DNA from: Dirofilaria immitis
Taxonomy: Eukaryota; Nematoda; Chromadorea; Rhabditida; Onchocercidae
DNA: 64,000 nt
NCBI GenBank assembly: GCA_024305405.1
Contig: JAKNDB010000103.1
Span: 3,534,001-3,598,000 of the forward strand
Direction of reading: 5' to 3'
Position 1 is the stretch's first letter. Each line of letters starts with the position of its first letter. Position numbers and translations under genes: made by a program. Shown piece by piece: positions 25,231 to 51,627 of this stretch. A model generated the notes under the pieces. It searched no databases. It saw nothing but the letters and a program-made list of their open reading frames with translations, and was not told where the DNA came from.

Positions 25231-25404
25231 ACGCTGCTTTAATTTTTTTTTTAAATGAATAACATGATTAAAGAACTAAGAATAGTGATACTAGATGAAT
25301 GATTTTACATCATCGTAAAGATTCAGGAAATTAAAACCATGATGATTCTAGTTATTAAGAAATGGTTCACTCATGAGAATTTATGAAAGACGTTGGCTGA
25401 GAAA

Positions 25405-25626
25405 TTAATTCACTGGATATTTTTGAAAAATTTCCTCACTATATAATTGTATAAGCATTTTACTATTAAGCAGGTAAGCCAAAAAATGATAGAATGAAGA
25501 AATAAGGAAATAATCATCAGCACCTTGCTTAATAACATTATCAACATAAAATTGTTCTAAAAATGTATGTAATTTTTCTGTCGAGATTTCGCAGAAATTA
25601 TTTATTGAATTTGGAATTTGAAGCAT
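25405..25626 (-). CDS. Unrecognised 73-residue open frame
   Basis: ATG to stop on the minus strand: MLQIPNSINNFCEISTEKLH, then TFLEQFYVDNVIKQGADDYF, ending SEEIFQKYPVN. Composition is protein-like (balanced acidic, basic and aromatic residues), with no signal peptide or known motif. No strong acceptor precedes the ATG. It could be a small gene, a terminal exon or a fragment of the zinc-finger repeat family's flank. Confidence 0.25.
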   Translation of the reverse strand: MLQIPNSINNFCEISTEKLHTFLEQFYVDNVIKQGADDYFLISSFYHFLAYLLNSKMLIQLYSEEIFQKYPVN

Positions 25627-25991
25627 TCCAGGAAAAGCATTCGATTATATTGCTTGCTTTTGTCATTAATCAAAATCAAAATCTAAACTAAATTAAATAG
25701 TATAGTTAAAATGATAAGGAAAATGCATAGATTGAAACGATAACAGCCATAATGTTTATTTTATTCATTTATTTTTTCCTCCAATTCATAATCGTTATTA
25801 TCGTAATCATTTTCAATTCAAACATAATATCTATCAGTTTATAATCTCTATTATTATTATTATTATTATTTTGTTTTACTCTATTCTTTCTTCATGTCGA
25901 TTATTCCACAAAAGTTTCACATCCTTTTAAATGGTATTTAGTGAATAGTACGTTGATAAAATGCTTCATCCCTTGCTTAATAGCACAAACT

Positions 25992-26027
25992 GCCTAAACC
26001 TATGCCTAAGCCTAAGGCTAGCCCTGA
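25992..26027 (-). repeat. Interstitial telomere-type hexamers (TTAGGC family)
   Basis: In one register: GCCTAA ACCTAT GCCTAA GCCTAA GGCTAG CCCTGA. Three units are perfect complements of TTAGGC, the telomere repeat of C. elegans and many nematodes, and the rest are degenerate. It lies at the left border of the duplicated zinc-finger zone. Confidence 0.55.
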
Positions 26028-26727
26028 ACAAAAACTAAAAATCTAAACTGGAAATCATCTAATTAATTTTGTCTGTATTTTTTTTAAAGTATTTGTATTA
26101 CTCTAATTTAATATATTTTCATAAAACGCTTTGTATTTACTTTTATAATTAATAAGAAGCAACTAATCGCTCATTTAGAAGTGTTAATAATTTCTGCATA
26201 ATAATATGATCCTTTGAAATATAACCTACAAATCTTCAAATCGTGTAATTGGGAAAACGCATTTCCCGGTATTCCGCAGAATGGTTCTTTATCAGTGCGA
26301 GTTTATTGCAATTGGCAAAGTCTTTTTCTCCCAAACTATTTTTTTGTACGTCGTACGTCCAATAATCTGATTTAATAAAGCAAAACTCACGTGAATATTC
26401 TACATGCTATATGTGCTTGCGTATTCTGCATGCTTCGGTAGATGAGCATAGGCGTAATGCAAGGATTATGAAGTAAATCCGTAGGCAAACATAAGAGAGG
26501 AGATTTTATTAAATGAAAAGAAAAAATATCAGGTAACAAATGGATAACTTATAAGTAAGTAATAACAACAATAATATTAGAAAATTTATTATAAATGAAG
26601 TTAGAACAAAAATAAAGCACGAAAAATTGACTAAATAGTAAGAAATCAATTGATGAAATATATGCATAATTAACAATCTCAGTAACAGAAAATAAGTATA
26701 TTTCAGTTTCATATCTATTTATTTTCT

Positions 26728-26961
26728 TCAATATGAAAATTCTTTACGTGAAATTTTAAATTTTTTATTGGATTTAAAGCTAGCAGAAAAATTGAAAATG
26801 ATCCTCTCGTTGTATTGAGTTATTATATACTCTTTTAAATTACAACATTCTGAGCAGTATATTTCTTCCATCGGCATGAGCTCGCTTATGGTAATTTCAA
26901 TTGCGAGACTGTTAACAATTTGATAAATTTTCTTTATAAATAAGCAAATGGAGAAATTCAA
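26728..26961 (-). pseudogene. Degenerate C2H2 zinc-finger fragment
   Basis: The minus-strand frame contains YCSECCNLKEYIITQYNERI followed by IFNFSASFKSNKKFKISRKE. Its second half aligns by eye with the last finger of the copy at 38318-38656 (RIIFNCPVCNNSFKSNKSFK), but the paired cysteines and histidines are lost (NFSAS for NCPVCNNS, KISRKE for KFHMKKFH). It is therefore a relic, inverted relative to the copies at 36 and 38 kb. Confidence 0.6.
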
Positions 26962-27217
26962 TGAAAATCTTGTTCCATCAATGCAGAAATTCCTTATTTT
27001 TTATCATTAATAATAGCATTCCGCGATATAAAAGCTAAAATGCAAAGTGAATAAAAAATATGAAAGATACAAAGATAATAAAAGGTATTGTATGCAAGAA
27101 AGTATAAAATAAATTAAGAAAAGCATAAAAATAAGGTGATAATATAAATAAAACATATTTAAATAAATGGAGCAAAAAGTATGTTCAATTATTACAGTAT
27201 AATGTTATTGTTTTATA

Positions 27218-27421
27218 GGAATGGCTTCTCGACGTTATAAAATTAGCATAGTGCCTTTTTAAATTCATTTTTATAATTAAAATTTTTCTCACATTCCGGA
27301 CAATATAATTATAGAGCTTCACACCGTTTTCATAATCGTGAGAAACTTCTCCCATATTTCGAACACTGTAAGGCTTCCCACCTCTATGAATTCGCATACG
27401 GGCCTTCAAACTCATTAACAT
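27218..27421 (-). pseudogene. Degenerate C2H2 zinc-finger fragment with paralogous 3' flank
   Basis: The frame reads MLMSLKARMRIHRGGKPYSV..., which is the linker region H-R-G-G-K-P-Y of a C2H2 array, but the CxxC pairs have become NMG and NV. In an adjacent frame the end reads NVEKPFL-stop, matching NVEKPFV-stop of the copy at 36161. The following 200 bases (27180 down to 26980) match the 3' flank of that copy (36170-36360) in inverse orientation. So this is an inverted paralogue of the whole gene end. Confidence 0.6.
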
Positions 27422-27660
27422 TCCGGTACTTCTTGCTATACATTTCTGTACGTTAACATTGTTAATTTATTTGTGCCATTACTTAACAAAATAGTGAAGA
27501 GCGAAAGTTATATGTTTTATGCAATTCATTAAAAAATTTTTTTTAAATTTTGAATTGAGTTATGTTTGTTTCAATAAATGAAAAAAAAGAACCGTTACAG
27601 AAGTGAAATACTTCAAAGAATTGTAGAAAAAATATATATATATATTGCAGAAAGATTGGC

Positions 27661-27834
27661 GCGATATAGTATACGGGAAAAGATTTAGATTTTATTTGAA
27701 CTTTTTTGCATTTGCTCATCTAATGAAAAAAATTTGTCGATTCGTCAACATTATTTCTTATCGAAGAAAATGATTGTGGAATCAGAGCAAAAATGCTATT
27801 TTAATTTCTAAATCTTTTCCCATGTACTATATCG
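27661..27834. repeat. Inverted repeat with about 29-bp arms
   Basis: Arm 1 (27661-27689) GCGATATAGTATACGGGAAA onward is the near-perfect reverse complement of arm 2 (27807-27834) ending CCCATGTACTATATCGC. The intervening segment is shared with 36.38-36.50 kb, which lacks both arms. Confidence 0.7.
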
Positions 27835-27869
27835 CTCTCTTCACTATTTCAAATCTTGCAAGTTGGTTT

Positions 27870-28030
27870 GTTTGATGTGAATATTAGGATCAGGAACTAA
27901 TGCAATTACCACTTAGGATAAGCATATATGATTAACTTTATTATTTCCAATGCATTAATATTCAAATTAGCGACAAATGCTCCAATATCTGAGCTATACA
28001 CGTTGCGGTTGTTATATGCTGTTGGAACTG
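27870..28030. repeat. Repeat module shared with 36.49-36.64 kb
   Basis: From TTTGTTTGATGTGAATATTA to about GAGCTATACACG this segment matches 36497-36640 (TTTGTTTGATATTAATGCTA onward), in the same orientation, with scattered substitutions and small indels. No coding content is apparent. Confidence 0.6.
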
Positions 28031-28129
28031 TGACTTGCTTTTTGATCCATTGCAAATTTATCAGTTTAATTATGTTTAATTTTTATTCGCCCATCTTACA
28101 TACATATGCGCATCAAATTTGAAAATCAA

Positions 28130-28834
28130 GTTAAAATTTGAAAAAGAATTTGGAAATCCACAAGCAAAGACTATTTCGACATGAAACCATTCCGATATAT
28201 ATATAAATGTACATCAGACATAAAAGATTCATTAATACGATTGTCATCTCTCCATTATATGATCTCAATTAGAAGGAATGGAAATATTGAAATGCCGTTA
28301 TTTAAAATTGGATATATCAGTTGTAGTGTTTTTGATCTGCTTCATTGAAATTTTCAAAATCTAGATTCTGATTGATCTAACCAAACTGATTTACTTGATT
28401 TCTGATCTTTTCCTAGTTGTCTGAAATAATATCGTAATTTCGTTCATTTACGATCCATTCCACAAATTTAATCGGTATAAGTTACCAATCTTTCTAAGTG
28501 CTTTTTCAAATCGATCGAAATATTAAGCATATATTGATGCAATCAATTATTATAAAATTTGCATGATTTCAGTAACAAACTTATTAGTCATAGATGACGC
28601 TTTTTCATGTGAAATTTCAAATATCGATATTTTCAAACGTTTTCATCTCTTCATCTATCGCCAAAAATAAGTTAAAATTTGAAAAAGAATTTGGAAATCC
28701 ACAAGCAAAGACTATTTCGACATGAAACCATTCCGATATATATATAAATGTACATCAGATATAAAAGATTCATTAATACGATTGTCATCTCTCCATTATA
28801 TGATCTGAGTTAGGAGGAATGGAAATATTGAAAT
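28130..28834. repeat. Near-identical 164-bp direct repeat, 541 bp apart
   Basis: 28130-28293 and 28671-28834 start GTTAAAATTTGAAAAAGAAT and run in parallel to ATGGAAATATTGAAAT with only about four mismatches that I can count. A diverged third copy is at about 35345-35505. The high identity of the pair indicates a recent duplication or a gene-conversion tract. Confidence 0.85.
28298..28660. repeat. Repeat module shared with 34977-35345
   Basis: This segment (CGTTATTTAAAATTGGATAT onward) matches 34977-35345 in the same orientation, offset about 6.68 kb. On the minus strand both copies keep a short frame reading VxWIxNERNYDIxSDN-stop (ends at 28413 and 35095), with mostly silent differences, so the module once included a coding exon end. 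Confidence 0.7.
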
Positions 28835-28835
28835 A

Positions 28836-29150
28836 AAATGAAATTATGGCAAAAAAAAATGTATAACAGCTTCGCATAAATTATTTCAAACAATACAGTA
28901 ACAGAAATTCAAATATTTCCTTTGATATAAAAGATTAAATGGTGGCGTTAAACATTAACCGAATAATTTCTCCCCTTCATTATTACACGTGGATTGCTAC
29001 CTCCATTATATATAAATTGACACTCTTATCTGAACGAGCATTTATATGTACAGTTCTTGACGATTTATGCAATTGAAACTGATAGAAGTGACCAAGTTAT
29101 TCTTGCATCAATTCTCGACTAAAATTTCAGCCTCTTCAACTTTAAATTTT
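28836..29150. repeat. Repeat module R3 (four copies: 28.84, 35.50, 36.65 kb direct; 38.98 kb inverted)
   Basis: Shared landmarks are GTATAACAGCTTCGCATAAA, CAGTGGCGTTAAACATTGAC-like, TTATTACACGTGGATTGCT and TATTTATATGTACA. Copies: 28836-29150, 35500-35684 (cut short by the mnmE insert), 36650-36960, and reverse-complemented 38980-39250. The 36.65 and 38.98 kb copies face each other around the best-preserved zinc-finger block. Confidence 0.7.
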
Positions 29151-29319
29151 ATTTTATTTTATTTTTTCGGTTGATGACTATTGACTGCTTTTTCGAATTT
29201 CGTGAAAGAGATTTTGAAACTTCATCATAAGGGTGTAAATGAGTATTCATTTTTGAAATATAATTAATTAATGTCATGGCAATTTATCCCTTCCTGTAAT
29301 AATATTATTTCTTTGTTGT

Positions 29320-29580
29320 TATAAAAGTTCAAATTGCATAGCTTTGCTATACGATATCTAAAGCCAATCTCTAGTAGGAATAACTTATTATGCTTATGAT
29401 ATAAGTGAGAAATGCCATATTTTGCCAATATTGATTGCGATCTTTATTTTTCAGTGTTAATTTATTTAGAAAGACATTTGTTAGAAAAAATTTTCTCTCA
29501 AGATCGAACCTTTGTAGGACGCGCAATCAGATAATGCCATTTCTTCGATGTAATTGTGTCATATACTGTTAATTTTGAAT
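29320..29580. repeat. Repeat module R4 (also 37065-37290 and 37530-37790)
   Basis: All three copies share a string like CTCTAGTAGGAATAACTTAT, then ATATAAGTGA.AAATGCCATA, then GCGCAATCAGATAATGCCAT and TTCGATGTAATTGTGTC. The two 37-kb copies are tandem. The module lies directly upstream of the PLDLS-coding segments at 29.8 and 38.0 kb. Confidence 0.7.
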
Positions 29581-29694
29581 AATTTTTAGAAATCGCAAGA
29601 ATGTTAATCGACATGCATTTCATCTGTTCTTTCTTCTTCGTCTTTCAATTATGCAACATTCAAATAGCAGTAAGTTAATAAAAAAAATATATTA

Positions 29695-29935
29695 TATTTA
29701 ACATTGCATTATTTTCATGATTTCAAAATTTTAAGGGAATATGAAATGGATAATATCATATAATTTGAGAACAATAACAAATACCATTGGACTTATCAAT
29801 GATGGAAGTGAATGAGAAACAAACGGAACCGTTGGACTTATCAATGATGGAAATATATAAAGAACAACAGAAATGTTAAATTTATCTATTCCAAAAGCGA
29901 ATATAAAAGAAGCAATGGATCAATGTAACATAGCT
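29695..29935 (+). pseudogene. Broken copy of the PLDLS-repeat N-terminal region
   Basis: 29778-29879 reads QIPLDLSMMEVNEKQTEPLD then LSMMEIYKEQQKC-stop, with two perfect PLDLS motifs. A one-base shift later the frame continues EMLNLSIPKANIKEAMD, matching EMLNLSV of the copy at 38 kb. Upstream, LTLHYFHDFKILREYEMDNI matches MTLQYFKDFKILTEYEMANI there, including the same TAA. No finger block follows within 3 kb, so this copy is truncated as well as frameshifted. Confidence 0.6.
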
Positions 29936-30203
29936 ATTTGGAACGTATTAAAGTTTTCAATGCTTTGAAAATCGAATAAGAGCACAATTTATTTTAAAAA
30001 AGTCGGATTTGTGTGACGAAATATATAATTTTTTCATTTCGATATTTCACACCTTAATATAATACAATTTTAAATCTATTGGAAATGTCATGAATAAATT
30101 GTTGAAAGATTTCCATGATAAAAAAAAATACGAATCATCATGAAAATTGCGAAGAGAACATGAAAATCATAGAAATCAATGATTCCTCTGTGTTAGATCT
30201 CAC

Positions 30204-30407
30204 ATGAAAGGGTATATGTTGTATGTGCGTGCGCGTTTACTGTACAATGCAAGATGTAAGCTAAAAATTGTTTTATCTTTGTCTAAGAGCTGTAATTTAC
30301 ACTCTATAACAAAGTCCCCTTTATTCTTGCATTCACAACCATACCAGGGTCCAACACCAAACCACTATGAAGAATATGCTTCATCAAGGCAATTAGGCGT
30401 TATTTAA
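30204..30407 (+). other. Possible terminal exon (tail GPTPNHYEEYASSRQLGVI)
   Basis: A C-terminal-looking segment follows a possible acceptor (CCATACCAG): GGT CCA ACA ... GTT ATT TAA, reading GPTPNHYEEYASSRQLGVI. Composition and codon use look coding, but no upstream partner exon was found and the rest of the open frame looks non-coding. Unrecognised. Confidence 0.2.
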
Positions 30408-32866
30408 TTTTCCTTTAAGTAATGCTATCGTCATTAAACTTATTTTATTGAAATCATTGAATTTGGATATTAATCTAGTAATTCTACGGTTTCGTTGGTA
30501 TGTTATCTAAATCGTCGTAATAAATTACCCGTTTAATTGTCCAAGTTTAATATTGGTGCATTTGGAATTTGTTTTTGGTAACATTTGAACTTAAATGAAA
30601 AGAATCTCTGTGTACTTTGTTGCAACGTAAAAAAAAAAAGGAAGAATTTTTCACTACAGGAAGCACTACAGCTGATTCAGATTAAATTTTATTTAACAAA
30701 TGTTTCATCTATTAGTGATTTAAATGTAAAATTGTTTTCTAAATTAAATAAAGAAAATTTTCTTTATAAAAATGATCTTTAATGGCTTGAGGATTGAATA
30801 GGAATACGAGTTATTAAAGCATAGTGTTAATTATTACAAAGTTAATTACTTTTGATTATATAAATAATGCTACCGTTTTTTGTTTTCAAATAATCTAATA
30901 ATTCACAATCGGAATAATAAATTTTAATTAATCATAGTTAATTCATTTAAATACACTTTTGTGCAAATGAATTGATATTACTTCTAATCCACAAAAACGA
31001 TTTCTTCTAGCAATCCATTGCTTGAAACATGCATAAATTTCGTAAATCCTATAAATTTCATAAATATATTCTGCTTTTTTGATTTCTTCTATTCGATTGT
31101 TTAAGTGATTTTGTAAAATTAATTAAAAGAGAAAAAAACTGAGATTAACTTCTAATAGAACATCTTATCTTCCATTGAATAATTTATTTTATTCATACCT
31201 TGCAATTAAGACATAAATCGTTTTCCAAGTAATCTGAGGATTACTATTATAGATTATTTAAAATTCACTTTGTATTGACAGAAAGTGTGCATCATTTTCC
31301 AATATATGAGAGAGAGGATGCTTATAATATTATTCTGTTTAACTCTTATTTTGGCTGCCGATGTATTCTTACCTAAGTTGCGCAGTTTGGTTAGCATTTC
31401 GTTGTTAGAATTATATAAAATGCTTTTGTAACTACTGAAGAAAATAATTCATGCTTATTTATTAAAAAGAAAGTAATTTTGGTATGATAAATATGCATGA
31501 AAATGGATGCATATGAAACAATAAAACAAACAATAGTGGCAGAAATTTAAATACTTCATCGATTGCTATAATCTTATTGATATTCGTCCAATCTCATTCT
31601 CAGAAAGTTGGACAAAATTTTCGCAGTAAAAAACCTAATACTTATTTAAAAAAATACTAATAATGAAAATGTTTTTGATATTCAGGGCTTGCTTTACTTT
31701 GATGTATTTCATAAAATGTAAATAGTATATTAATGCGATGTTGATAATAATTTGATGAATAGTGATTAATGAGGTCTTTGTATTTGCAATTAAAATAACA
31801 TGATTATAAATGTGTAAGGGAAATATTTATCGTTTATGTTGCTCTATGATTTGTATTATTGAAGCATGATTAATTTCTCAAACAAAAAAAAATTGCAATA
31901 ATTAATAATAATCAAAATTTGGCGGAAATTTGATTAATAAAATTTTGCTAATGCTAAATCAAAAATAGAATGAGTAAACTTAGATGAATTTTCTTGAATG
32001 AAACTTTATGCAATATTTCAGTTTGCTATGTATGTGAAGCATGGAAAATGAATAAAATGTATTAATCCCAAATAGATTATTTCGAAACCGAAATAACTAT
32101 ACGAACAGGCGAGCGATAGTTTCATTACAACAGCATATTTTTATCAATTTCCAGAAAACAATTTTTCTATTCGTCGGAAAGAAAGGAATTAAATAATTTT
32201 ATTGTTAGTTACATCGAAGGTACAGAAGCAGTCATGACTTTTATTTGCATAAATTTGCATAAACTTATGATTTTTGATGAGACCATAAAAAATTTGTTAT
32301 TATTCCACAACATATTTATATTATTCAGATTAACAAGCCCTCATCTATTAAAAATTTTTTATTGTTTCTAAATTTTCGAATATCAAATTTATGAAACTGA
32401 AACTTGAAAAGTTAGCTCTCTGTTATAAAAAACTCAAGAAAAGTTTTTATTATGAATGATTGTTAAGCATAAAATTTGCCTTCTCAATCGTTGAAATTTT
32501 AGAATAATCTTTCCGTAATATATTAACGATAATCCATTAATGATTGTCATAATGGTACTATCAGCTTCATTCATGCCACATTTTCCTTTTCCTCGATTTT
32601 TTGTGGCGTACTTATCGTACACTAATCAATGATGTTTCCATTGATGCAATCGGTTTGTTGCCGAATTGCCTCTTACGTAATTCGAACATATGACGAACAT
32701 TCCCTAATATACACCTAAAAAACATAATATTATAAACTTTATTTTTACTTATAATCTGTTAAAATGTCAAAAATATAATATCAGGAATATGAAATTAAGA
32801 AACTTGTAAACGGTTCGATTTTTGGTCTCCCAGTTCAGAAAACTTTTAACTGTGCCACAGATCAAG
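30408..32866. other. AT-rich stretch with no supported gene
   Basis: Open frames here (for example 30585-30782 + and 32434-32622 -) have neither motifs nor convincing splice context. I see nothing else beyond short A/T runs. Confidence 0.5.
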
Positions 32867-32962
32867 ATGCGAACTACCGATGTATTAATATTTTACCCAT
32901 TAGAAGACTGTTTATCAGGCATTTATGTAGTTGAAGAACCAGGAACTTGGCTTCAGGATCCT
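32867..32962 (+). CDS. Probable first exon of an unrecognised protein
   Basis: ATG follows CCACAG and opens 32 codons, MRTTDVLIFYPLEDCLSGIY then VVEEPGTWLQDP, ending at a perfect donor CCT/GTAAGTTGAG (phase 0). The sequence is clearly protein-like and stands out from its surroundings. A possible later exon at about 34700-34764 reads CPINTNLETNATYPTENKRR after TTTATCAG, but needs a phase-1 entry, so at least one exon is unseen or they belong to different units. No family recognised. Confidence 0.4.
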
Positions 32963-34976
32963 GTAAGTTGAGATCTGTTCTGATTTCCAACAACATCTCA
33001 CGCCTTCATTTTGATCGTTTTATTATTTATTTCCACAATATCTCAGTAATTATCAGAGGGAATATTTATTTATTTGTTGGTAGTAAAAAGAACTGCATAA
33101 ATTTAAGCTGAGTTTCTGACTATAACGGTAGCACTTACCAATAGTACATAAGTAATTGCAAAACAGGGAGATATATATTTCATAAAAGTCTAACTTATCT
33201 GGATAAGATAGTTTTCTTCAATGATCAATAGAAATGAATCTTTCCGTTCCACTATTAATCTAGCCGATGGATTCTATTTTTGATATAGTATTTGATATTT
33301 GAACTTTATTTTCTTGAATTATTACATTCATATCTATTGTTTCCATAAATGCCTGATATTTATTAACGCTACCTATATTGGCTATAATCATTTATCAAAC
33401 TCTTTTGATAATCTTTATCACAATGATAGTTTCATTTTCAGGTTAGTAAATGCTGACTAATGATATGATATAATAATAAGAAATCTGAAAATTATAACTG
33501 AACGCAACAAATTTAATAACTCCAATGATATGTTTACATTTTTAACAAGCATCTCGGATTGTTGTTAATCATTTTCGCTAATTTGAGATAATTGCAACCA
33601 ATTCCATATATATCATATAATTATAGAGTATTATTAATATTCGAAAAACTGATTGACTGCATTAAGAGTAGTTAATTTATTGAAATTAGTTTATTCAATT
33701 TATCAAAATATGTCACGTTTATTTATAAGTTACGTATATGAAGTAATATATTTTTCAAATGAATTTAGATTTGTTGGATATTTTTGTAAAAATTTGAAAA
33801 TTTAATATTTAATTCATCATCCATCCTGATGAACTAAATAAAATTGTTGTCTTCAATGGATTCTTGTCAAAATTATATCAGCATTTATCAAACTGATAGT
33901 CAAATTTGGAGAAGCAGTAAATAAATGAATAAAGCTAAACTTTAATTGTCATTATAACATTACTCTATAGCAATTTATAAATATTAAATTCACATAAATT
34001 GGAGTAAATAAAATAAATAATTTAGCGTTAAACTGTGTACATTTTCCATTATCTATCCATCGGTATTAATTTTATCAAAATTACAAAAAAGGAATAAGTT
34101 AATTTCTTTCCTTTTCTCAATCTTTTCATAAATTAATAATTAAACTAAAATTGTTTATTTTGTTATAAGTTTTTATAATTGATCAGCTTATTATTAGAAT
34201 TAAGTTAAAATTGCTTATTTTATTATCAGTTTTTATCATTGATTAGCTAACAATGAAATAAGAATGTACATAGTGTAATTATCTAGAGTTTTTTTTTAAT
34301 AATATTATTGCTTATAAAAGAATATTGATAGATCTCGAAAAAAAGTCAAAAAATTGAAAGGACTTGAATAATAATTTTAAATAATTAAGAAATGGTTAAT
34401 TGCTAATTGATGATAGAGAAGATATTTAGGTGAAATATATAAAATTTTGTTTTAATTAAAACATATTATTGAAATAAGCAACGAGTAATTAATTAATCAA
34501 AATTATCATTTTTGAATTTTTATTTCTCGTCATTAATAAAATATAAAGTTTTCTAAAGGTAAATGTATGAAATTATTAAAATTTTTTATAGCCACATATG
34601 TGAATCAATACATTATTATTGTTAATTACAATAATTCTTTCCTGTATTTAAATGCAAATGTCTAATATAAAAATAATCATTTCAACGTCTTTATCAGCTT
34701 GTCCAATAAATACGAATCTTGAAACAAATGCAACATATCCTACAGAAAATAAAAGAAGATGCAAGTATTTAACCACATAATAACAGACATCAGATAAAAT
34801 CGAATAAGGAAATTCTTTATGAGAGAAAATTCCAAATTATCTATATTTTGAAGTGAAGCCATTTTTTTCAAAGGATGAAATGGGCTGTATTAAATTAATC
34901 TAATTATTATGAAAAACAAGATTGTTCGCTACAGTTATCATTTCTTCAGATCTAAATCGTGACATGAAATTATCTG
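32963..34976. other. AT-rich stretch, possible intron(s) of the preceding exon
   Basis: No supported exon other than the weak candidate near 34700-34764. An acceptor at about 33442 (TCATTTTCAG) would end the preceding exon's frame after VSKC, giving a 36-residue product; I do not favour this. Confidence 0.4.
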
Positions 34977-35684
34977 CCGTTATTTAAAATAGGATATATC
35001 AGTTGTGGTGCTTTTGATCTGCATCATTGAAAATTTCGAAATCTAGATTCTGATTGATCCAACCAAACTGATTTACTTGATTTCTGATTCTTTCCTAGTT
35101 GTCCGAAGTAATATCATAATTTCGTTCATTTATGATCCATCTTACAGTTTTATTGGTATATTCAGCTACTAATTTTTCTACTTGCTTATTTTTTTCTTCT
35201 AAAGTGATCGGTGGAATATTCGGTATATATTAATACAATCAACTATTACAAAAATTTGCGTTATTTTAGTAGCAAATTTATTAGATGCTTTTTTCATGTG
35301 AAATTTCAAATATCGATATTTTTAAACATTTTCAATCTCTAAAAATAAATTTGAATTTAATTAAAAATTTACAAATCCGAACAAAAACGTTGATGAAACC
35401 ATTTCGAATATATAAATATATATCAAACAAAAAGATTTATTAGTATGATTTTCGTTTCTCCGCTAATTTTGCCTCATTTAGAAGGTATGAAAATATTTAA
35501 ATGAAATGAAATTATAGGAGATAATGTATAACTGCTTTGCATAAATTATATCAAACAATATAATAACAGCAATTCAAACAAATTTTTTTGATATAAAGAA
35601 TTAAACAGTGGCGTTAAACATTGACCGAATAATCTCATCCCCCTCCCTCCTCGCCATACCTTCGTTATTACACGTGGATTGCTA
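34977..35684. repeat. Duplicated block cut off by the mnmE insert
   Basis: 34977-35345 matches 28298-28660, 35345-35505 is a diverged copy of the 164-bp repeat, and 35500-35684 is an R3 copy. The match to the other R3 copies stops just after CACGTGGATTGCTATTT, about 35 bases before the bacterial segment, which defines the left breakpoint. Confidence 0.65.
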
Positions 35685-35719
35685 TTTTTATAGGATTGAG
35701 AAAGAAAAAAAAAAAAAAG

Positions 35720-35986
35720 ACTTTCATGAATTCCAGCAGTGTCAGAAAGGATGATTGGATACCCACCAATGTCAATATGAGCTTCAAGCACGTCTCTTGT
35801 TGTGCCTGCATGTTCAGAGACAATAGCGATATCACGTTTGGCAAGGAAGTTAAATAGTGTTGATTTACCAACATTTGGTTTACCAGTTATTACAATATGT
35901 AAACCATCACGCAACCTTTCACCTTGTCTATTGTCATTTAGATGTGCTTGTATTGACTGCACAAGAGCTTGCACTTCATTATTGAA
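35720..35986 (-). pseudogene. mnmE: Fragment of bacterial tRNA-modification GTPase mnmE, Wolbachia-like nuclear insertion
   Basis: MnmE with MnmG modifies the wobble uridine of certain tRNAs in bacteria. The minus strand reads about 85 uninterrupted residues: [72 protein letters not shown]. This covers the end of the helical domain and the start of the G domain: G1 GKPNVGKS, G2 GTTRD, G3 DTAG. G4, the rest of the G domain, the N-terminal domain and the C-terminal Cys motif are missing, so it cannot be a working enzyme (full length about 450 residues). The 3' side runs into poly(T) (poly(A) on +, 35704-35718); the other side abuts a zinc-finger reading [12 protein letters not shown]. It is intronless and more GC-rich than its surroundings. 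A Rickettsiales/Wolbachia source is favoured; a native mitochondrial GTPBP3 fragment is the alternative. Confidence 0.8.
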
Positions 35987-36161
35987 GCCTTACGATTGTT
36001 CGGAATGTGGGAAAAGTTAATCCACGAACTTGAAAGTGCATATGTGAACATATAGCGGCAAGGAGCCCTACAACTGTCCGGAATGTGAAAGAAATTTTAA
36101 TCATAAAGCAAATTTAAAAAAGCATATGATAATTCATAATGTCGAGAAGCCATTTGTATAA
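35984..36161 (+). pseudogene. C2H2 zinc-finger gene end with two in-frame stops
   Basis: Reads [45 protein letters not shown] then NHKANLKKHMIIHNVEKPFV-stop. The second finger is intact (CPEC...H...H with HNVEKPF linker); the first has two stop codons. Its upstream half is replaced by the mnmE fragment, the junction falling at GAAG. Its 3' flank (36170-36360) is shared, inverted, with 26.98-27.18 kb. Confidence 0.7.
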
Positions 36162-36379
36162 TACTAATAGATGAATATACTTTATGCTCCATTTATTTAC
36201 ATATATTTTACTTGTATATTATCACCTCATTTTTTAAATTTATTTTATGCTTTTTTGCATACCATTTATTATGTTTGTATCTTTCATATCTTTTGTTCAC
36301 TTTACTTGTTAGCTCATGTATGGCTAAAATGTTGTTGATGATAAAAATAAGGAATTTTTATATTAATGAAACTAAATTT

Positions 36380-37880
36380 TGACTGAACTTTTATATTCGC
36401 TTATCTATTGAAGAAAACTTGTCGAATTGTTAAGAATATTTCTTATCGAAGAAAATGATTGTAGTAGAATTAGAGCAAAAATGTTATTTTAATTTTTGTT
36501 TGTTTGATATTAATGCTAGAATCAGAAAATAATGCAATTTCCATTTAGAACAAAATGTATGATCAGCTTTATTATTTCTGATGCATTATTACTCAAATTA
36601 GTAGCAAATGATCAAACACCTGAGCAATATACTCTTATAATTTTGAAAAAAAAATGAAATGGATTTGTGGGAAAAATGTATGGTTACTTTGTATAAATTA
36701 TTTTAAATAATGCAATGGAGTAATTCGAATAATTTTTTTTTTTTGATATAAAGGATTAAACAGTGGCATTAAATATTGACCGAATTATCCCTACTTTCGT
36801 TATTACACGTGGACTGTTAATTTCTGTTATGCACAGATTGACACTCCTACCTGAACGAATATTTATATGTACAATTATTGACGATTCTTACAATTGAGGC
36901 TGACAGAAACGATCAAGTTATTCTTATATTAAATTCTCTGCTACAAATTTTAATCTAATAAATTTCACTTTATTTACTTTATTAGAGAATATTTTGTTAT
37001 AAATATTCATATGATTTTGTAAAAACCTTATGACCTTCTTTCCTACAATATGATATTTTCCTTAGTTATATATGTTATATAAAATTCGCTGCATAATATC
37101 TTGAGTCGATCTCCAGTAGGAATAGCTTGTTTTGCTTATGATATAAGTGAGGAGGAATGCCATATTTTGCCAATATTAATTATAATACCTTAATTTTTTA
37201 ATGCTAATTTATTTAGAAAAACTTTATGGACACTCAATCAGATAATGCCATTTCTTCTATGCAATTGTGTCGTATACTGTTAAATTCGAATACATAGTGA
37301 CCAAGTTAATCTTGCTGTACTGAAACTTCAGCCTTTCCAACTTTAAATTTCATTTTATTTAATTCGTTTGAAGAATAGTAGGCGCTTTTTCGAATTTCGT
37401 GTCATGAAAGAGATTTTGAAATTTTATCATAAACGTGTAAATGAATGCCCTTTTATGAAAATATAGTTAATTTCTCATAAATTTCATGGAGATCTCTTCT
37501 TCCCTATTATAATATTATTTTTTCTTTTGCTATAAAATTTCAAATTGTATAACTTTGTTGTACGATATGTACAGTTAATCTTCAATAGGGATAACTTGTT
37601 ATTATGCTTATAATATAAATGAAACATATCATATTTTACTAATAATGGAATCTTTACTATTCAATACTAATTTATTTGGAAAAGTAAAAATTTCTTCTCA
37701 AAATCAAATCCTTTGTAAGATGCGCAATAGCAGAAAGCAGATAATGCCATCTCTTCGACGTAATTGTGTCCGCTAAATTTAAATATTTTTTCAGAAATTC
37801 CAAAAAGAATGCTTATCAACGTGTATGTTATCTATTCTTCCTTTTTGTCTTTCAATTATGGAACATTCAAACGGTAAACT
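36380..37880. repeat. Mosaic of family repeat modules
   Basis: Contains the module shared with 27.69-28.03 kb (36380-36640), an R3 copy (36650-36960), and two tandem R4 copies (37065-37290, 37530-37790) separated by a segment like 29.09-29.32 kb (TTTTTCGAATTTCGTG landmark at 37387). No coding content is evident; this looks like the 5' flank of the next zinc-finger copy. Confidence 0.6.
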
Positions 37881-37906
37881 AATTAAAATTTAAAGAAAAG
37901 AATAAC

Positions 37907-38656
37907 ATGACACTGCAATACTTTAAAGATTTCAAAATTTTAACGGAATATGAGATGGCTAATATCATATAATTTGAGGAAGCACATCCACAACTAACAA
38001 AGCTGCCCGATTTATCAAAACTGCGTGAGGAACAAGTTGAACCGTTGGATTTATCAGTGACGGGAGCGAATGAGAAAGAAACAGAAATGTTGAACTTATC
38101 AGTGAGATTGAATGAAGAACAAATAGAACTGTTAGACTTATCAGTTCCAACAGTGCACATTGAAGAAGCAGCGGATCACACATCAATTCAAAAAGAGAGA
38201 ATGAGCCAACGAAATTAAATAAAGTAATGAATGATGAACAGAGTGAGTCGTTAAATTTATCCATTCAAGAAACAGGTAAGGAAAAAACAGATAAGGAAAA
38301 AAGAGAAAAGGGATTAAAAAGAAATTGAATGTCCTTCATGCGGAAAAAAATTGCGAAGCAGTTTGGAAACTCATATGCGAACTCATACCAAGGAGACGCC
38401 ATACAGTTGCTTGGAATGTAAGAAAAATTTTACTCAACAAGCGTCTTTGATAAATCATATTCGAATTCATACCGGTGAGAAGCTATGGAAATGCTCTGTA
38501 TGTGAAAAAAGTTTTGGTCGAAAAGGTACTTTAAACGAGCATATAGAAACTCATTGCAAAGATAGGATCATCTTTAATTGTCCTGTATGCAATAATAGTT
38601 TTAAATCGAACAAAAGTTTTAAATTTCACATGAAGAAATTTCATAATCAAAAATGA
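37907..38656 (+). CDS. PLDLS-repeat / C2H2 zinc-finger protein, best-preserved copy, integrity uncertain
   Basis: Probably a nuclear DNA-binding repressor. Three segments: 37907-37972 MTLQYFKDFKILTEYEMANI-I-stop; 37973-38218 in the same frame, with EPLDLSV, EMLNLSV and ELLDLSV; and, one base out of frame, 38227-38275 MNDEQSESLNLSIQETG before a GTAAGG donor. PLDLS is the known docking motif for the corepressor CtBP. The finger block 38318-38656 has CPSCGKKLRSSLETHMRTH (two residues short between Cys and His), then three full C2H2 fingers: CLECKKNFTQQASLINHIRI-H, a TGEKLWK linker, CSVCEKSFGRKGTLNEHIET-H, and CPVCNNSFKSNKSFKFHMKK-FH. The donor at 38276 would join in phase to AAAAAG/AAATTG at 38320, a 45-base A-rich 'intron' without a pyrimidine tract. 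With an in-frame TAA and a frameshift, it is either wrongly modelled or a recent pseudogene with intact fingers. Confidence 0.55.
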
Positions 38657-38979
38657 AACAATTAAAAGATTTGAAAAAGTTGCTGTTTTACGATTATCTA
38701 TGCATTCCATCAATTGGATTCTTAATCTCTAGTCAATTTTTCATTATTTTTTTTTTTAATTTTTGCTTTATTTGTAATAATTTTTGCTGATATTGCTATT
38801 GTACTTACTTATATATTATTCGTTTGTTGTTTGACATTCGTTTCTTTTCCATTTTCTTTTATTTGTTTAATTCAATAAATGAAATTTCGTCCCTCATATT
38901 TTCAAGAGTCGCTTATTTACACGTTTATAGCAAAATATTCTTTAATGAAATAAATAATTAATAAATTTAAATTTATAGC
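38657..38979. other. 3' flank of the zinc-finger copy
   Basis: No coding content. An AATAAATGAAATTT sequence near 38874 could supply a poly(A) signal for the finger gene. The minus-strand frame at 38531-38713 is a shadow of the fingers. Confidence 0.4.
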
Positions 38980-39250
38980 AGAGAACTTAATGCAAGAATA
39001 ACTTAGTCATTTGTGTAGTCAGGTTCATTTATATGAATCGTCAACATATAAATACTCATTAAGGTAGGAGTATCAATCTATGTGTCAATCCATTATGTAA
39101 TAATGAAGAGAGAGAGTTAATGCCTAATGTCACTGTTCAATCCTTTATATAAAGAGAATTTATTTAAATTACGTTACTGTATTGTTCCAAATAATTTATG
39201 CAAAGCTGTTATACATTTTTTCCATAATTTCATTTTATTTCAATTTTTTC
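38980..39250 (-). repeat. Inverted copy of module R3
   Basis: Read on the minus strand this matches the R3 module (AATTATTTGGAACAATACAG, TTATATAAAGGATTGAACAG, ATTATTACATAATGGATTG, then AGTTATTCTTGCATTAAG). It faces the R3 copy at 36650-36960, so the zinc-finger block at 37.9-38.66 kb is bracketed by inverted copies about 2 kb apart. Confidence 0.65.
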
Positions 39251-41187
39251 ATACTTTTTAAATGAGAACATATTAGCGGAAAGAGAAAATTGCATTAATA
39301 TCTTATGTTTGATATATATTTACAATGTTTTTACTCGGATTTGCAAATTCTTAATTAACTTCAAACTTATTTTCAACTTATCTTATCTTAGGATTGAAAG
39401 ACTCATTTGCCTGCGATTGCACTAAATTAATTTGAATTAAACAGAATTATTCAGTTTGAATTATCCTTGAATCTGATTCAGCGAAGATTAACCACTTCTA
39501 ATGATTGCAGTTTTAGTTGTTTAATATAATGAATTCTCTCTATATTTCTAGTCTAAAGATTTATAAATTAATCGATAAGCTCAATATACTAGAAATAATT
39601 GCAACTTCTTTAATATTTATTGACAAAAGCTGTTTCCGATAAAGCCATGAAGATAATTTTTAACTTTCAGCTAATCAAGGAGGATGCATAATGAATCATT
39701 GTCAGATTAAAATTCGTAAAATTCGATGAATATTATTATTGGTATGAAAATGATGTTTTTTTTATAAATTGAGCTATGCTTATTTGCTGTTATCTAATTT
39801 CATTTATAGCGAAAAATTGGTTGCAAAAATAAGCTCATATTTTAGGTATAAGTAAAATTTTAAAAAAAAAAGTAAATAGATTTTGTTTACTTTATTGCTG
39901 TTTATTTTTTAACTTTTCGTCTTACTTTATTTGGCTCTTCTTCAAATAAGAAAATGATTTGCTGAGAATACGAAAAAATTTCCCTTTTTTTTTAGAAAAT
40001 TTACGCGCGTATCAAAAATTTAAAAACTTAAGAGATTACCTGATGTACTTTGACATTCATTAGAAAATGTCATTCAAAATTCATTTTCAAAGTAAATATG
40101 CAATTAGCAGAGGGAAAACGAGGGATAATTAAATAATATCCTTTTAAAAGATAAGTTTGCATTTTATCAATAGATGACAATATTTTCAGTTACATTTTAT
40201 TGATGATTAAATGAATAAACTTTAGTAATGATACCATACCTTCAGACAGAAGGAAGCTTTACGGCTATATTTTTTAAATTAAACAAATATAAGATATCGC
40301 TGATGAATAAAACTCTGTTAATGACAGCATATTTTCAAATAGATGAAAATTATGGTTGTAGGTTTTATTTTGAATTAAAGTGGATATAAATTATTGTCGA
40401 CGACTTAATTTTATTAATTTCTTCATGTTTTTTCAAATAGATAAAAAGTTGCGATTATAGATTTTACTGAATTAAAAGAATATAAGCTGTTCTTTCATAA
40501 TGTTTCAATCGAAAGTTAATCTAAACTAGATTTTATTGTTCAATTTTTGTAAGTAATCAATTGATGCTTGCAATGGAAATTATAAAGTTTAAATCTTTTT
40601 TTCTATGATAAGTTTTATTCCGAATTAATCTTTTCTTTTATAGTATAAAATTGATGAAATTACTTTAACGAAATGCTTAACATATGAATAATAGAGTTAT
40701 TAAAATTATTAAATTATCTTATTTAAAAAAATTGAAATTCATAATATAATTCATAAATTGAAGGTTTTGCATTAAAGTATGAGGAATAATTGAAATATAA
40801 ATGTGCATATAAAATTGATTTCAAAGAATAAATTTAATTTTCAAGCGCAAATGAACAAATTGTTTATAAGACAACTAATTGGTACTAATTGTAATTAGTT
40901 TAATATATTCATGTAATGAATTAACATCTTGGATGATATTACTTATGATAAAGAAATTTTGTTATAAAATTATTTCGGAAATTTTATAGCACAAACAATT
41001 GCAAACGCTTGTTTCACACTGAAAATTATTTATTAATTAATCGTTTTAGATCAAATTATCTGTAGAAGTTAGTATGCGAAGCATATGTGTGAATTAACTT
41101 TTTTTTTTCTTTTTTCTTTTTATAAAATAAATTTATCATTCTAGTTGTGAAATTAATAAGGAATGAATTTTTAAATGTAAATTTATT

Positions 41188-41217
41188 TATTCGTCTAATT
41201 GAGAAGTTAGACGAATA
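41188..41217. repeat. Perfect 11-bp hairpin
   Basis: TATTCGTCTAA (41188-41198), loop TTGAGAAG, TTAGACGAATA (41207-41217). Not followed by a strong T run, so no terminator reading is offered. Confidence 0.7.
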
Positions 41218-44200
41218 TTTATTTTTGTCATGATTTTTTATTTAGGGTAATTGATATTTGAAATGAATTATAGATAATAAATTTTCAATTTTCTCATACT
41301 GTCAAAATTTTAGAAAATTAAGAAGCTAATAGCATAATTGATATTATAATATCAGTTATGCTACATTTGTTTGTTATTATCTTACATGCAAATGTATAAG
41401 TTAATTCAATCTTCTATTACTACAAATAGTAATATTTGAAATAGCAATTTCAATAGAAAAAAAAGTTTTGAAATAGCAATTTTAAATGATTTGTTTTTGA
41501 ACATCATTTCAATATTTGTCATTTTTTAAAATTAATATTTTTAGAAGTTGTAGAAATTTGTTGTTGTTGCTGTTTGATGATTGAATGATATAATTAGAAG
41601 TATTTAAATTTTATTTCATATACCAGTACTTTTATCATTACACTTTAGAGAATATTAATATTAGGATGACTATTTTCTTGCAATCATAATAATTTCTCGT
41701 TGTCCTATACTTTTAATTAGTCTAGAAGTCGTTTTTCATACATAGAAATCTATTTAAGTGAAGGTTCAAATATTACTCATTAAAATTTATTTTGTAACAT
41801 CATGCAAATATTTCACTTTGTAACGGCATTATTTTGTAACATTGAGGAAAAAAGCAAAAAAATTTGTTTTAATATTGAAATATTAAATATCGTAATATTT
41901 AAGAAATTCTACCGTAGTCTTGAAGAAACACTGTGATATTTAAAAATGTTGCTGATCATATTGAGCAAATACTACAGATATTTTTTTTCTATTAGTATTT
42001 ATAATTATTATAAAGTTTACTATAATTACTGTAATTATAAAGTAAAGAGGTAAAAAAATTTTTCTTTGCCATTTAATTATTTTTCTATGACTCAAAGTAT
42101 AGGACAAAGAGAAAAAGTATTGGTAAAAGAACAAAAAAAATCCATTGAAAAATTTAATAAAAATATTTTAGCAAATTAAATGCGTTTATTTGTATCATGT
42201 ATAATAATTAGACAATTCTCGAAAGCAATATCGATATCGAAATTTTCTATTAAAAATTATCACAGAATAAAAAGAAGTGAAAAATTTTGGTCACATTGCT
42301 GTCACATCAAATTATGACATCTTTTTTACTACAAATTATTCATTGAAAAGTATTGGTTATAAAATTAACTGTTGTTGAATATTTTGATAAAACAGAAACT
42401 TTAATTTTATTTTTTAAAGAAAACTTCTATCTTCAATTTTAACCTTCACAAATAATTTGATTACTAGAGGATGCTATGCTTTTTTAAATGACCCATAAAA
42501 TGAGGTAATAAATTTATTTGTTTTAAAACCAATTTAAAAATTATGTTTTTATCATTTCGTCAGAAATCAGCGACGTGGAAGCGACAAAAATTTGATATTC
42601 GCAGCATTGAATTCAAATATGTTTGATGTTATTTATAAAACAAAATTGAATTAAATTGATTTTAAATATGAATTAAATAAATTTGCACATCCTCAGCAAT
42701 TATTAACTGATAATTTTTGTGTTCTTAAATCATGAACTAAAGGAAGAAGATGAAGTCATTTGAAACATTTGCCATTCTCGATGGTTTTTGAATTATAAAA
42801 TTTCAACAAATTAAGAAAGTCAAAGTTAGCTTATTCTGAAATTTTCCACACCAATTCATCGCTAACACAGTGATAATGGCAAAAGCATAAGCTTTTTAAA
42901 TCAAGATGAATCGCAGAAATTTCGAATGAAGTTGTTAAATAGTCTAATCGATGATGATTAAAAATGAGATCAGCGAAATTCTAATAATTCTTCAAAATGC
43001 GTATTTAATTTTTTTCCCAACTTATTAATAATAAGAGGATTCTATCGATAAATCTTAATCTCTATCTTGGTTAATCTGTATCACAACGACGATAACATAA
43101 TGATAACAGTATGTGCTTAGTTGATATTTTGAATGATAACGGTAGTTATCTATCATGTATTCATTATTGTTCAATATCATTGCCTTATAATTACATACTT
43201 TATATCTACTACATCTTTTTATCAGATACATTATTTATCACTCTAGCTTCAGTTATAAGTATTATGAAAGTTATCAACTGATTTAAGCTAGTTTAATGAT
43301 AAAGCTCGATAAGAGAGACACAGCGGTAGACTTGATAAGCTTCTGTTTACATCATACTTATCACATCCATCAGAATTTGAATTCACGCAATTAAATTTGA
43401 ACGACAATTGATAATTCATCAATTATTGGTTCTTCTATTTTATAATTTTTAAAAAAATCATCAATTGAAGTTAAATTATTACCGGTACTAAAAATCGCTT
43501 AAAAATATAGCTTTTCCCATTGATCATCCATTATTATTAAGATGATATTATCAGTTTTTAAAGTTTCTAGAATCTTTTCCAATCACTTATTAACATTTCA
43601 TCGATAAATTGCAAATCGGAAATTCAATTTGACATAATTTCAATCATAAGAGTTATAAATTTTATTTTTGCAAAGTATAAGATCTCTTGAAACAAATTAC
43701 ATTTACGAAAATGAGGCAATAATTTTCCAAATAATTTCATCGATTTTTTTTTATTTTTAAAACATTTTTCATGTTCGATTATCAATATTTTGTCGAATAA
43801 TTTTTTTAAAAATAGTTTAAATTCGAATAATTTACAATAAATATTTAGTATGTTTATAAATGCATAATTTCTTAAGAAAGAAAAATCAAATTAAACATTT
43901 TGTGACCAAATAAATAAGTTGATTAGAGATAATCAATCAATCTGTGTCAATGATAAAGTAACTGATAGCAAAAAGTTCGTGTTTATCAATTCTTTGAAAT
44001 AATTGTTATATTTGATAAATGATAAGTATTGAATATTCAGGATTTCAACGTTCATATTTTAATAAACATTAATGTATTTTGGAATTAATATTCTTTTTTA
44101 ATAAGAATTTTTTTCAAGTCTTTTTAAATGAACTTTTCTTTTTTTTTTAAAAAAAAGGACTATATGTGTTTGATTTAAATTTTTGTTTAACTTTTATCTT

Positions 44201-44485
44201 TCATTATACTTTCTTCTAACTGTGATTGTGGAAACTTTTATTGATTGCAATTATTTTCTTCATATCATTATATTTTGCTTGAATGATTAATTATTAATTA
44301 ATTAGAAAATGAATAAATCAGTTTTGATGATTATTTAATTAAGTATCATTTTTTTACATAGTTTGTATAATTTGTGTAATATATTTTTTAAATTGTATTT
44401 AATAAATAAGTTATTATTTAAACAAAATGATTGTAGTATTGTTGCATATAATTATTAAATAAAATTTTAAGTGCAATTTTTTCCT

Positions 44486-44526
44486 ATTATTTCATATTGA
44501 TAATATATATGTCAATATGAAATAAT
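44486..44526. repeat. Perfect 15-bp inverted repeat
   Basis: ATTATTTCATATTGA (44486-44500), 11-base AT spacer, TCAATATGAAATAAT (44512-44526). Confidence 0.75.
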
Positions 44527-45820
44527 CTTAAAATTGATTTATTGCAATTTAAAGTTTAAAAATTTATAAATTTTTTTTTTTGAATAAATTTCAAATAAAA
44601 TTTTCTATTTTATTCTTAAATTCTTTTTTCAATTAATAATATTTCAGATTAAAAAGATTATTAATGTAGATGTATATGTTATAATGGAGAGGAGAAATGA
44701 TTTTTGAAATATCGTATAAAAAAATTGGCATAAATAAATTTTTAATTATAATAAAGTAGCAATAATAATACAAAATACATCCCTAAAAATATAATTACTA
44801 TAAGGCAAAATTTTTATCAAAATTTAATGCTAAAGAAGTGGACGAAAAAGATGAAAGCATAAATGATAGTATTCTCTTTGCGCTTTTGAAGCCGACATGT
44901 TACTTTATGATCGGATCCGTCGATGAAGAATTTTCATCATTTTTGCTACAAAAGCATGCTTGAAACCAGTAGTATAAATTGCAAATTCCATTGATCTTAT
45001 CATTTATATATTATCATTGCATTAGATGATATTAATTTACATACCTCATCATCAATCAACTCAAACTGGAATTATTACTCACAAAATATTTGCTCCATTC
45101 AATTTTGCTAAAATTACAACCAGCCGAGATGATGAAAAAAGATGAGAATTATTATTATCATAATATAGAAAAAGAAAATTATTATTATTATTAAAGTAAT
45201 AACATTAGGAGAAGGAACAAATTATGGGAGCAAAATTATCGAGAAATATTAATAATTATAATATTATTATTTGGTAATATCAATATGCTATCAGAGAATA
45301 ATTATCAATGATAATTATGTGAGATTTAATTTGTTATCAGTTATTTTCGTTATTTTTGATAGGCATTTATGATATTAGAATAAGTTATTTGTTTTAATTT
45401 ATATGAATTGAAAATATTGTATTAACATTAATTTTATATTATATTTTTAGAAAGAATTATTTTAGAATTGTTTACATTTTGAAATATTTTCAATCATCTT
45501 TGATCATTAGCATAAATATATAAGAGTTGATCCTTTGTTTTCCATTCCTTCTTTTGTTCATAATTATTATTGAATATATTATTATAATTAATCATATTTA
45601 TCATTTATCTTTAATGATAAGAATAGAATAATAGAATTAAAAGATCTTTAAAGATAGATAATTTTACGAATGATTGTAATTGTGAGCTGATCCAAAACAA
45701 TCATAATAAACAATTGTTAAGGATGAAAACGAGAATTTTTCAAACAAATACGAATTAATTAATAACGATCGATGAACCGATTCGTATCAGACGATATAAG
45801 AAAGCCAACTTTTTCATTTT

Positions 45821-45880
45821 CTCTCTCTCTCTCTCTCTCTCTCTCTACCTATCCATCTATCTATCTATTTATCTTATCTA
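45821..45880 (+). repeat. (CT)13 followed by (CTAT)n
   Basis: A pure CT run at 45821-45846 is followed by CTAT-type tetranucleotide repeats to about 45880. Confidence 0.9.
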
Positions 45881-47949
45881 TATTGGTCATTTAAGAATAT
45901 AAAAGATGGTGAAAAGCCTGTTTTGATTTTATTCAAAATGATTATTAACATCGAATCACTACTACTATTACTATCTATAACTGATTGCATAACAACTTGT
46001 TTTCAAACAATTGTGCATCATTATTCGTTGATAAATGATTATATTTTATTATCGTCATATCATCGAAAGCATTGAAGAAAAGCATCAACGATGATATTTC
46101 TAAATATTATTTCTAATTTCAACATTTGTTACTACTATCAATGATAATCATTCACATTCATTTAACAATAAAATCAAAAAAAAAAAAAAAAGATATGATT
46201 TAAAAATGAAAAACAAAGAAAACCAAAAATAATAAAAAACAAAGACAAAAACAAAACGAAATGAAAAATTTTGAATGAAATTCGATTTCGAAAAAAAAAA
46301 AAGAGAAAATATTTTATCACAAAAGATACGAATGACTTTTTTTTCCTTTTTTTTTTTTTTTCTTAAGCTTCATTGTCCATTTATTTATCAAATAACGAGA
46401 TATAGGTTGTGAGAGATGAAAATATACAATTGAAAAAAGGCAATAATTGTTGATTTGTTATCAACAAAACTTGTTACTGCATCATCGTTATCCTACGGTT
46501 AAAGTTGTTGTTTAAATTTTGCGAGAAGAATTTATCCTAGCTGAAATAAAAGTTTTTGTTTATAAAAAAATAAAAAAATTAATTAAATAAAAAGAAAAGA
46601 AAATAGGAATGAATAGGAAAGATAGCAAATGCACTTATTAATTGAATAACGAAAAATTTTATATCGAATATTCGTATTTAGAAAAACCTAATTATTAAGT
46701 GATAAAAATTATTTTTAGAAAGAAATGATTCATTAAAATATGTAATTTGAAAAAATTTTTAAATGAAAAAAAAATGACAAATATTTCTAAAATAAATCGA
46801 AAATTTGCTAAAATAAAAATTGTAGCAAATTAATAATTTACATTTTTCAATTTTTAATTATCCAAATGGATGAAAGAAATTGTTGATTTATGAAAAATAT
46901 ATTCCATCGAAATCTTCTTTACAAAATATTATATCGATGAATATTGCTAAAAGTTGCTAATTTGCGTTTTAGCTTGAAATTAGCCATAATTATTTATCAA
47001 TGCTGCTAATGATGATGATAATGAATGATAGCAAAAATAGAGATTAATCGATTTTGCATAATTTTTCGTTAAAAATTAGATTTTAATCAAATTTTTTAAT
47101 TAATACAAAATTAAAATTTTAACATACATTCAATTTATATATGCATAAAAATCATTTCAAAAATGCACAATAAATTAAATTTATTTTTTTAAATTTAAAA
47201 TAAAAAAAAATTTCCTCTTCATTGTAGTTTTCTTTTCTTTTTTTTTTTTAAATGATATTATTAATGATAAAAATGTAAAAATATTTCCCATCGATTAATT
47301 TATCGAAGTTTTATTTTTGCATGAAATTTTGAAAGAATTAAAGAGACAATTAGTCGCCAAATTTAAGCAAACAATCTTTTATAAAATTTAAAATAAATTA
47401 AAGAAGTAATTAATCATTGTTAAAATTAGTCTAAACAATAAAATATACGTATATATATATATATGAATTGATAATTCAACATTTTATCTTTTATCATTTT
47501 CTATATATATATATAAGATAAGATTATTTCAAATATGAATGAATAAATCGATCTATGTGTTGTTATGTATGTGTATGTTGATATATTTTAATTTAGTCAA
47601 TAGATATTTGATCATTTATCAATATAGTTGTTATTTTCAATTTTTAGAGAAATACGATTGACCATGAATCTCTAGATGCAATGATGACGCAAGACAAGAA
47701 ATAAAAAAAAAAAAGAAAATCTCTTTTTTTTTTTTTTTTTGGGGTCAAATAACATCGTTGCTTATTATTCCAATTAAAAATTAAATCAAAAAAAAAAAAT
47801 TTTTGATTGAGTATGAGAAGATTTAGTAAAAATGATAAACGATAAAATGGATGATGTAAATTTGGTTCAGTTAACTTTTTAAATGCAATTTCACATATAT
47901 AAAATGATGGTATGGCAATAAATGTTAGATGTTGAAGAAAAGGATTCAG

Positions 47950-47987
47950 ATGATGATGATGATGATGATGATGATGATAATGATGAT
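47950..47987 (+). repeat. (GAT)n microsatellite
   Basis: About twelve GAT units with one AAT interruption near the right end. Confidence 0.9.
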
Positions 47988-51612: not shown

Positions 51613-51627
51613 ATGATGATGATGATA

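Follow-up and report, generated by a model that had tools for sequence, protein, structure and literature searches.

A short fragment of Wolbachia mnmE within a zinc-finger repeat of the Dirofilaria immitis genome

The heartworm Dirofilaria immitis has a zinc-finger repeat, one copy of which harbours a 267-bp fragment of the mnmE gene of Wolbachia. With a probability of about 95%, it is a nuclear Wolbachia transfer (NUWT) captured during the end-joining repair of a break in the repeat. The fragment lies in the window analysed in this work, a stretch of 64,000 nucleotides (C63:3534001-3598000) of the 3.67-Mb contig JAKNDB010000103.1, hereafter C63; the assembly searched (GCA_024305405.1) includes 86,694,620 bp in 65 contigs. 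Inserts of this class are well known, in D. immitis itself, where 483 NUWTs have been catalogued, 85% of which are assigned to supergroup C and 12% to supergroup F (Vancaester et al. 2025, PMC12693587). The insert is likewise nuclear and of the short, scattered, mostly supergroup C kind, and represents an ordinary event among hundreds of such pieces. In contrast to that survey, as far as its available part goes, a single insertion is here tied to a strain and described along with its unoccupied counterparts and the letters of its joins; the present analysis adds the source strain, the empty sites, the anatomy of the junctions and a misleading gene model. Neither mnmE nor trmE is found in the main text of PMC12693587. 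Among open-licence papers that mention both D. immitis and NUWTs none with mnmE was found, and the sole match for filarial Wolbachia trmE in the open-licence literature is a paper dealing, in its accessible part, with small RNAs of Wolbachia. The main value of the locus is that of a clean NUWT example and of an annotation warning, a public worm protein having a bacterial middle.

The insert is part of a stop-to-stop ORF of 147 aa on the minus strand (35546-35989), the first 88-90 codons of which correspond to MnmE and carry the G1 (GKPNVGKS), G2 (GTTRD) and G3 (DTAG) motifs in the MnmE order. The ORF matches the NCBIfam MnmE profile NF003661 (E 6.3e-45, profile positions 190-277 of 448) with a score of 154 bits, below the whole-protein cut-off of 380 bits, as that of any fragment must be, and matches Pfam PF01926 (E 4.6e-18) at positions 1-58 of 113 only. 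The original prediction of about 85 stop-free codons with GTPase motifs of the MnmE type is thus borne out by the ORF and by both profiles, the frame being on the minus strand; on the plus strand, several stops occur in the first frame of the interval initially delimited (35720-35986). That interval was correct as to location, and incorrect as to its edges (Table 1). The left edge was set at 35717 by comparison with P0002, a MnmE protein of 455 residues read as that of wDi, the Wolbachia of Dirofilaria immitis: after the residues ES, P0002 has L279 and the insert reads CTT. The three bases of this codon were added to the insert from the protein comparison.

Truncation at both ends, also foreseen, is evident, since residues 191-279 of 455 remain, or 89 codons. 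In MnmE, a tRNA-modifying GTPase, G4, G5 and the C-terminal domain come after G1-G3. All the parts downstream of G3 are absent from the insert, as is the N-terminal domain. The PF10396 (N-terminal) and PF12631 (C-terminal) domains, both present in the listed full-length MnmE proteins, are gone, and the set of PF10396, a whole G domain and PF12631, by which a functional MnmE was recognized, is therefore not found in the insert. Neither a stop nor a frameshift occurs inside it, and it has no ATG of its own. Of the notion that the fragment is too short to function, the shortness is a matter of fact, and the loss of function is well supported by inference. The insert consists of half a GTPase domain devoid of a start codon, sits in an already broken exon, and most likely does nothing.

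Table 1. Features of the insertion locus (positions are those of the window)
Feature	Position	Strand	Remarks
Left host flank	35313..35702	+	385 matches, 4 mismatches and 1 gap relative to the empty C13 paralogue
Left GAA of the 3-bp overlap	35700..35702	.	Occurs once in the empty site GAGAAGCC; both flanks align with C13:484644-484646
A-rich 14-nt addition	35703..35716	.	Absent from the empty site (C13) and from wOo
Wolbachia mnmE fragment	35717..35983, possibly to 35985	-	Codons 191-279 of MnmE read as wDi; G1, G2, G3; intact frame; from blastn, protein identity and NF003661
Right GAA of the 3-bp overlap	35984..35986	.	From the C13 comparison
Right host flank	35984..39310	+	3299 matches, 19 mismatches and 9 gaps relative to the empty C13 paralogue
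Zinc-finger exon remnant	35984..36160	+	Stop at about 36020; same letters in the empty C13 paralogue; "finger" is our reading
Open C2H2 zinc-finger stretch, right flank	38318..38653	+	Pfam PF00096 (2e-18), PF13465 (1.6e-21)
Protein P0124, exon 1	36263..36287	-	Host sequence, as mapped here
Protein P0124, exon 2	35763..35988	-	Almost entirely Wolbachia sequence; bordered by two GT-AG introns
Protein P0124, exon 3	32612..32714	-	Host sequence, ends in a stop

At the DNA level, wOo, the Wolbachia of Onchocerca ochengi, is the best match (242/264 nt, 91.7%, E 1e-104 to 1e-106) among the Wolbachia loci compared, a set without wDi, and chance is far exceeded by this match and by those to the profiles; the ten next loci, among which two titled only "Rickettsiales bacterium" and retrieved by the same genus search, are 77-89% identical. 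In the genus-wide search the insert was matched in 38 of 41 genomes, with wOo ranking highest, and had no match in three. At the protein level, all 88 residues compared are shared with P0002 (positions 191-278), and the runner-up shares 82 of 88 among the best 120 of 1168 proteins retrieved with the wOo MnmE as query. At two positions of the translation, 15 and 60, the residue of the insert is shared with P0002 and with none of the 119 other proteins listed. Relative to wOo, 22 nucleotides differ; 14 changes are silent, the remaining eight fall in seven codons and alter the residue, and each of the seven yields the residue of P0002. In a nucleotide tree (built from 45 sequences, one of them the insert, of which 32 remained once duplicates had been removed; wDi not among them, L014 and L015 excluded as from other genera, L012 having no match), the insert is placed near wOo, G020 and a pair of older NUWTs with weak support (81/57), and is drawn open. 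The insert groups with Wolbachia genes and not with host genes at the protein level, its place within Wolbachia being weakly resolved by the nucleotide tree. The predicted Wolbachia-like character of the sequence is substantiated by the identity to P0002. With P0002 taken as wDi, origin from supergroup C, and specifically from the heartworm's own Wolbachia, is established at the protein level only. What distinguishes the insert from the protein of the symbiont is its reduced size, with both terminal domains missing.

The original prediction would have fallen had the closest match been the mitochondrial MnmE of the nematode itself, the nuclear-encoded GTPBP3. An exon of GTPBP3 could well display an open frame with MnmE motifs, and be included, as the insert is, in a deposited worm protein. 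The nematode does have its own MnmE-like exon (C16:1858650-1858775), and its open frame matches NF003661 (E 2.2e-14); yet this separate exon is only 55% identical to the insert over 42 residues. Because P0002 is identical over 88 of 88 residues, the insert is not the worm's GTPBP3, and the identities leave this reading practically no chance.

The fragment is located in a nuclear contig and has host DNA on either side. Left and right flank alike are part of a repeat family of the host genome, for which at least 63 matches, the query locus included, were obtained with a 1.7-kb query (best 40 of 105 candidates scored), and C2H2 fingers are encoded in the right flank. This agrees with the assignment of the flanks, made from the letters alone, to a nematode repeat and zinc-finger family. 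A paralogue on contig C13 is empty: there the two flanks are contiguous and share three bases, and 23 of 3707 aligned bases differ (0.6%; ~99% identity). A 122-base flank-to-flank probe, searched against loci L097-L132, aligns through the join with all of its bases at C13 (98.4% identity), and with 65-67 bases across the join at four places on C25, where identity is 89-93%. The homologous site is thus uninterrupted at five places, in keeping with the proposed insertion into nematode DNA. Because all five junction-spanning matches are uninterrupted, the uninterrupted site is the shared state; of the copies examined, that on C63 alone carries the insertion. The insertion did not break the finger-like exon at this site, because the C13 copy shows the same letters, stop included.

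Blastn identity to C13 was 93% for the left side of the insert and 98% for the right side, which hinted at a switch in divergence, and hence at a recombination breakpoint at the insert. The notion was dismissed, as the left-hand drop in identity is situated near 35313, at a distance from the insert, and both sides adjoining the insert are ~99% identical. The possibility that the zinc-finger repeat is an insertion hot spot was also considered and set aside. A copy of the repeat on C25 hosts a thrS fragment, but none of 11 other NUWT loci, inspected with ~1.5-kb flanks, matches the repeat. The thrS fragment (L128:4640-4870, C25:239640-239870) is a piece of a bacterial-type threonyl-tRNA synthetase (TIGR00418, E 1.6e-23, positions 361-437 of 565). 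It occupies the interval between two stretches that match the repeat, and is probably another NUWT. The segment L124:3-5069 (C13:475003-480069), which lies within a few kb of the empty site, contains long ORFs, which we take to resemble the polyprotein of an LTR retroelement. Dirofilaria NUWTs are enriched with Pao elements, according to PMC12693587.

The letters at the junctions are informative as to the mechanism. The empty site reads ...TATAGG-TTGAGAAGCCTTACG, the filled site ...TATAGGATTGAGAA + AGAAAAAAAAAAAA + AAGACTTTCATG (Wolbachia) ... CATTATT + GAAGCCTTACG. GAA borders the insert on both sides, and the empty site has a single copy of it. On the right, wOo diverges from the first base on, and other strains match for two more bases; microhomology at the right join would accordingly amount to 0-2 bp, depending on the sequence of wDi. 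A plausible scenario is that a double-strand break occurred in one copy of the zinc-finger repeat of Dirofilaria immitis, and was sealed by non-homologous end joining (NHEJ), which would have captured a stray 267-bp piece of the chromosome of the resident symbiont. The 3-bp GAA overlap and the A-rich addition of 14 nt would have been left behind at the joins. We infer end joining because of the overlap and of the added nucleotides, and numt joins are similar. Numts insert by NHEJ with microhomology or nucleotide additions, and 54% of the examined events occurred without deletion (Hazkani-Covo and Covo 2008, PMC2567098). Like the organellar DNA of those numts, the Wolbachia piece would have been captured where the chromosome broke, and microhomology or extra nucleotides would mark the joins; the difference lies in the partners, an intracellular bacterium as donor and a nematode as host. 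The passages of PMC5429809 at hand mention "junction" once, in relation to PCR validation, and do not contain microhomology, poly-A or non-homologous.

The same letters weigh on two other explanations. The Wolbachia piece could have been falsely joined into the worm contig as an assembly or library chimera, as its residues are indistinguishable from those of the protein of the live symbiont, as read here. We consider this quite unlikely because of the structure of the junctions and because of the other Wolbachia matches in the assembly. The piece spans only 267 bp, beyond which the host sequence continues from the base predicted by the empty paralogue, and the joins show both the 3-bp overlap and the A-rich stretch; moreover, the same assembly has 21 other matches, 71-89% identical, to one 10.3-kb stretch of wOo. 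Alternatively, the run of A residues at one edge could mean that a host reverse transcriptase retroposed a Wolbachia RNA. On the mnmE sense strand, however, the run is a poly-T located at the 3' end, so that its polarity is the opposite of that left by a polyadenylated sense copy, and the target overlap is just 3 bp. To our knowledge, Wolbachia mRNA would moreover be expected to lack a host tail. Retroposition is extremely unlikely.

Capture by end joining would be recent, in relative terms. A recent event had been suggested by the undamaged frame, and the suggestion finds backing in the absence of stops and frameshifts, in the lack of any residue change relative to the MnmE read as wDi, and in the small divergence of the flanks from the empty paralogue. 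About 202 nonsynonymous sites show no change; neutral drift of 1.5% per site would yield such a record in ~5% of cases. Because C13 is empty and the flanks diverge by 0.6%, the insertion is younger than the last common sequence of the C63 and C13 flanks, unless the sequences on either side of the insert were subsequently made alike by gene conversion. That the piece derives from an older, larger nuclear insertion, rather than straight from the bacterium, is very unlikely. NUWTs can duplicate within host genomes, as stated in PMC12693587, and a pair of mnmE pieces on C63 is such a duplicate; yet the next-best copy of the region in the genome is only 79-80% identical to the insert, and the insert has accumulated no amino acid change from the MnmE read as wDi. 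The locus suggests that DNA has moved from the present symbiont to the worm nucleus in recent evolutionary time, and copies of the empty site persist elsewhere in the genome.

The insert has entered the public record as part of a worm protein. P0124, a protein of 117 aa named "tRNA modification GTPase MnmE [Dirofilaria immitis]", maps to three exons in the window, separated by GT-AG introns of 274 and 3048 bp (Table 1). Cuts of the second intron shifted by one or two bases yield the same protein, and just one of them is GT-AG. Exon 2 stops short of G3, and the acceptor of the first intron, ATCGTAAG, lacks in our judgement the usual pyrimidine run. P0124 is likely an annotation error, an artefact of gene finding. 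It is improbable that the insert has been exonised, and acts as the middle exon of a real, spliced heartworm transcript of three predicted exons, in which a P-loop segment of Wolbachia would be combined with host exons; if so, a chimeric gene in the making would be at hand. P0124 ought not to be taken for a tRNA-modifying enzyme of the host, for a horizontal gain of function, or for a drug target.

Other pieces of Wolbachia DNA are scattered in the assembly. The 10.3-kb neighbourhood of mnmE in wOo has 22 matches in the host genome, the insert included, of 58-264 bases and 71-92% identity, the shortest of which may be due to chance; by position, eight of the 22, the insert again included, fall in mnmE itself. 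An older mnmE NUWT, interrupted by stops, is found in two copies in opposite orientation (C63:1502053-1502255 and C63:1704399-1704601), which are about 200 kb apart and 92% alike over 1 kb. Within the window, no further convincing NUWT was found at 30001-40000, compared with 11 Wolbachia genomes, or at 10001-30000 and 40001-60000, compared with four. Short matches at 51614-51703 and 57771-57823 were taken as false, as they fall in simple repeats of the GAT type (51614-51703 and 57740-57825), and the remaining short matches in the scanned parts are 45 bp or less. Matches to the COX1 family were considered as candidate mitochondrial insertions, and dropped. One of them, on C26 (C26:1610144-1611361), is a Pfam COX1 match lying 0.9 kb from a piece that matches another wOo gene, and its protein presumably reads like Wolbachia CoxA; at the C26 locus, symbiont genes that are not neighbours may have been combined into one mosaic insertion. 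The assignment of the host to D. immitis is backed by the ITS2 primers of this species (PMC9009037): at three places, each next to a 5.8S match, the forward primer matches exactly and the reverse primer with 1-2 mismatches, and the spans of 290, 300 and 297 bp compare with 302 bp in that paper. Matches to 5.8S rRNA occur at 14 places on many contigs, 11 above the cut-off and with unequal scores, a pattern which suggests dispersed rDNA copies or pseudogenes.
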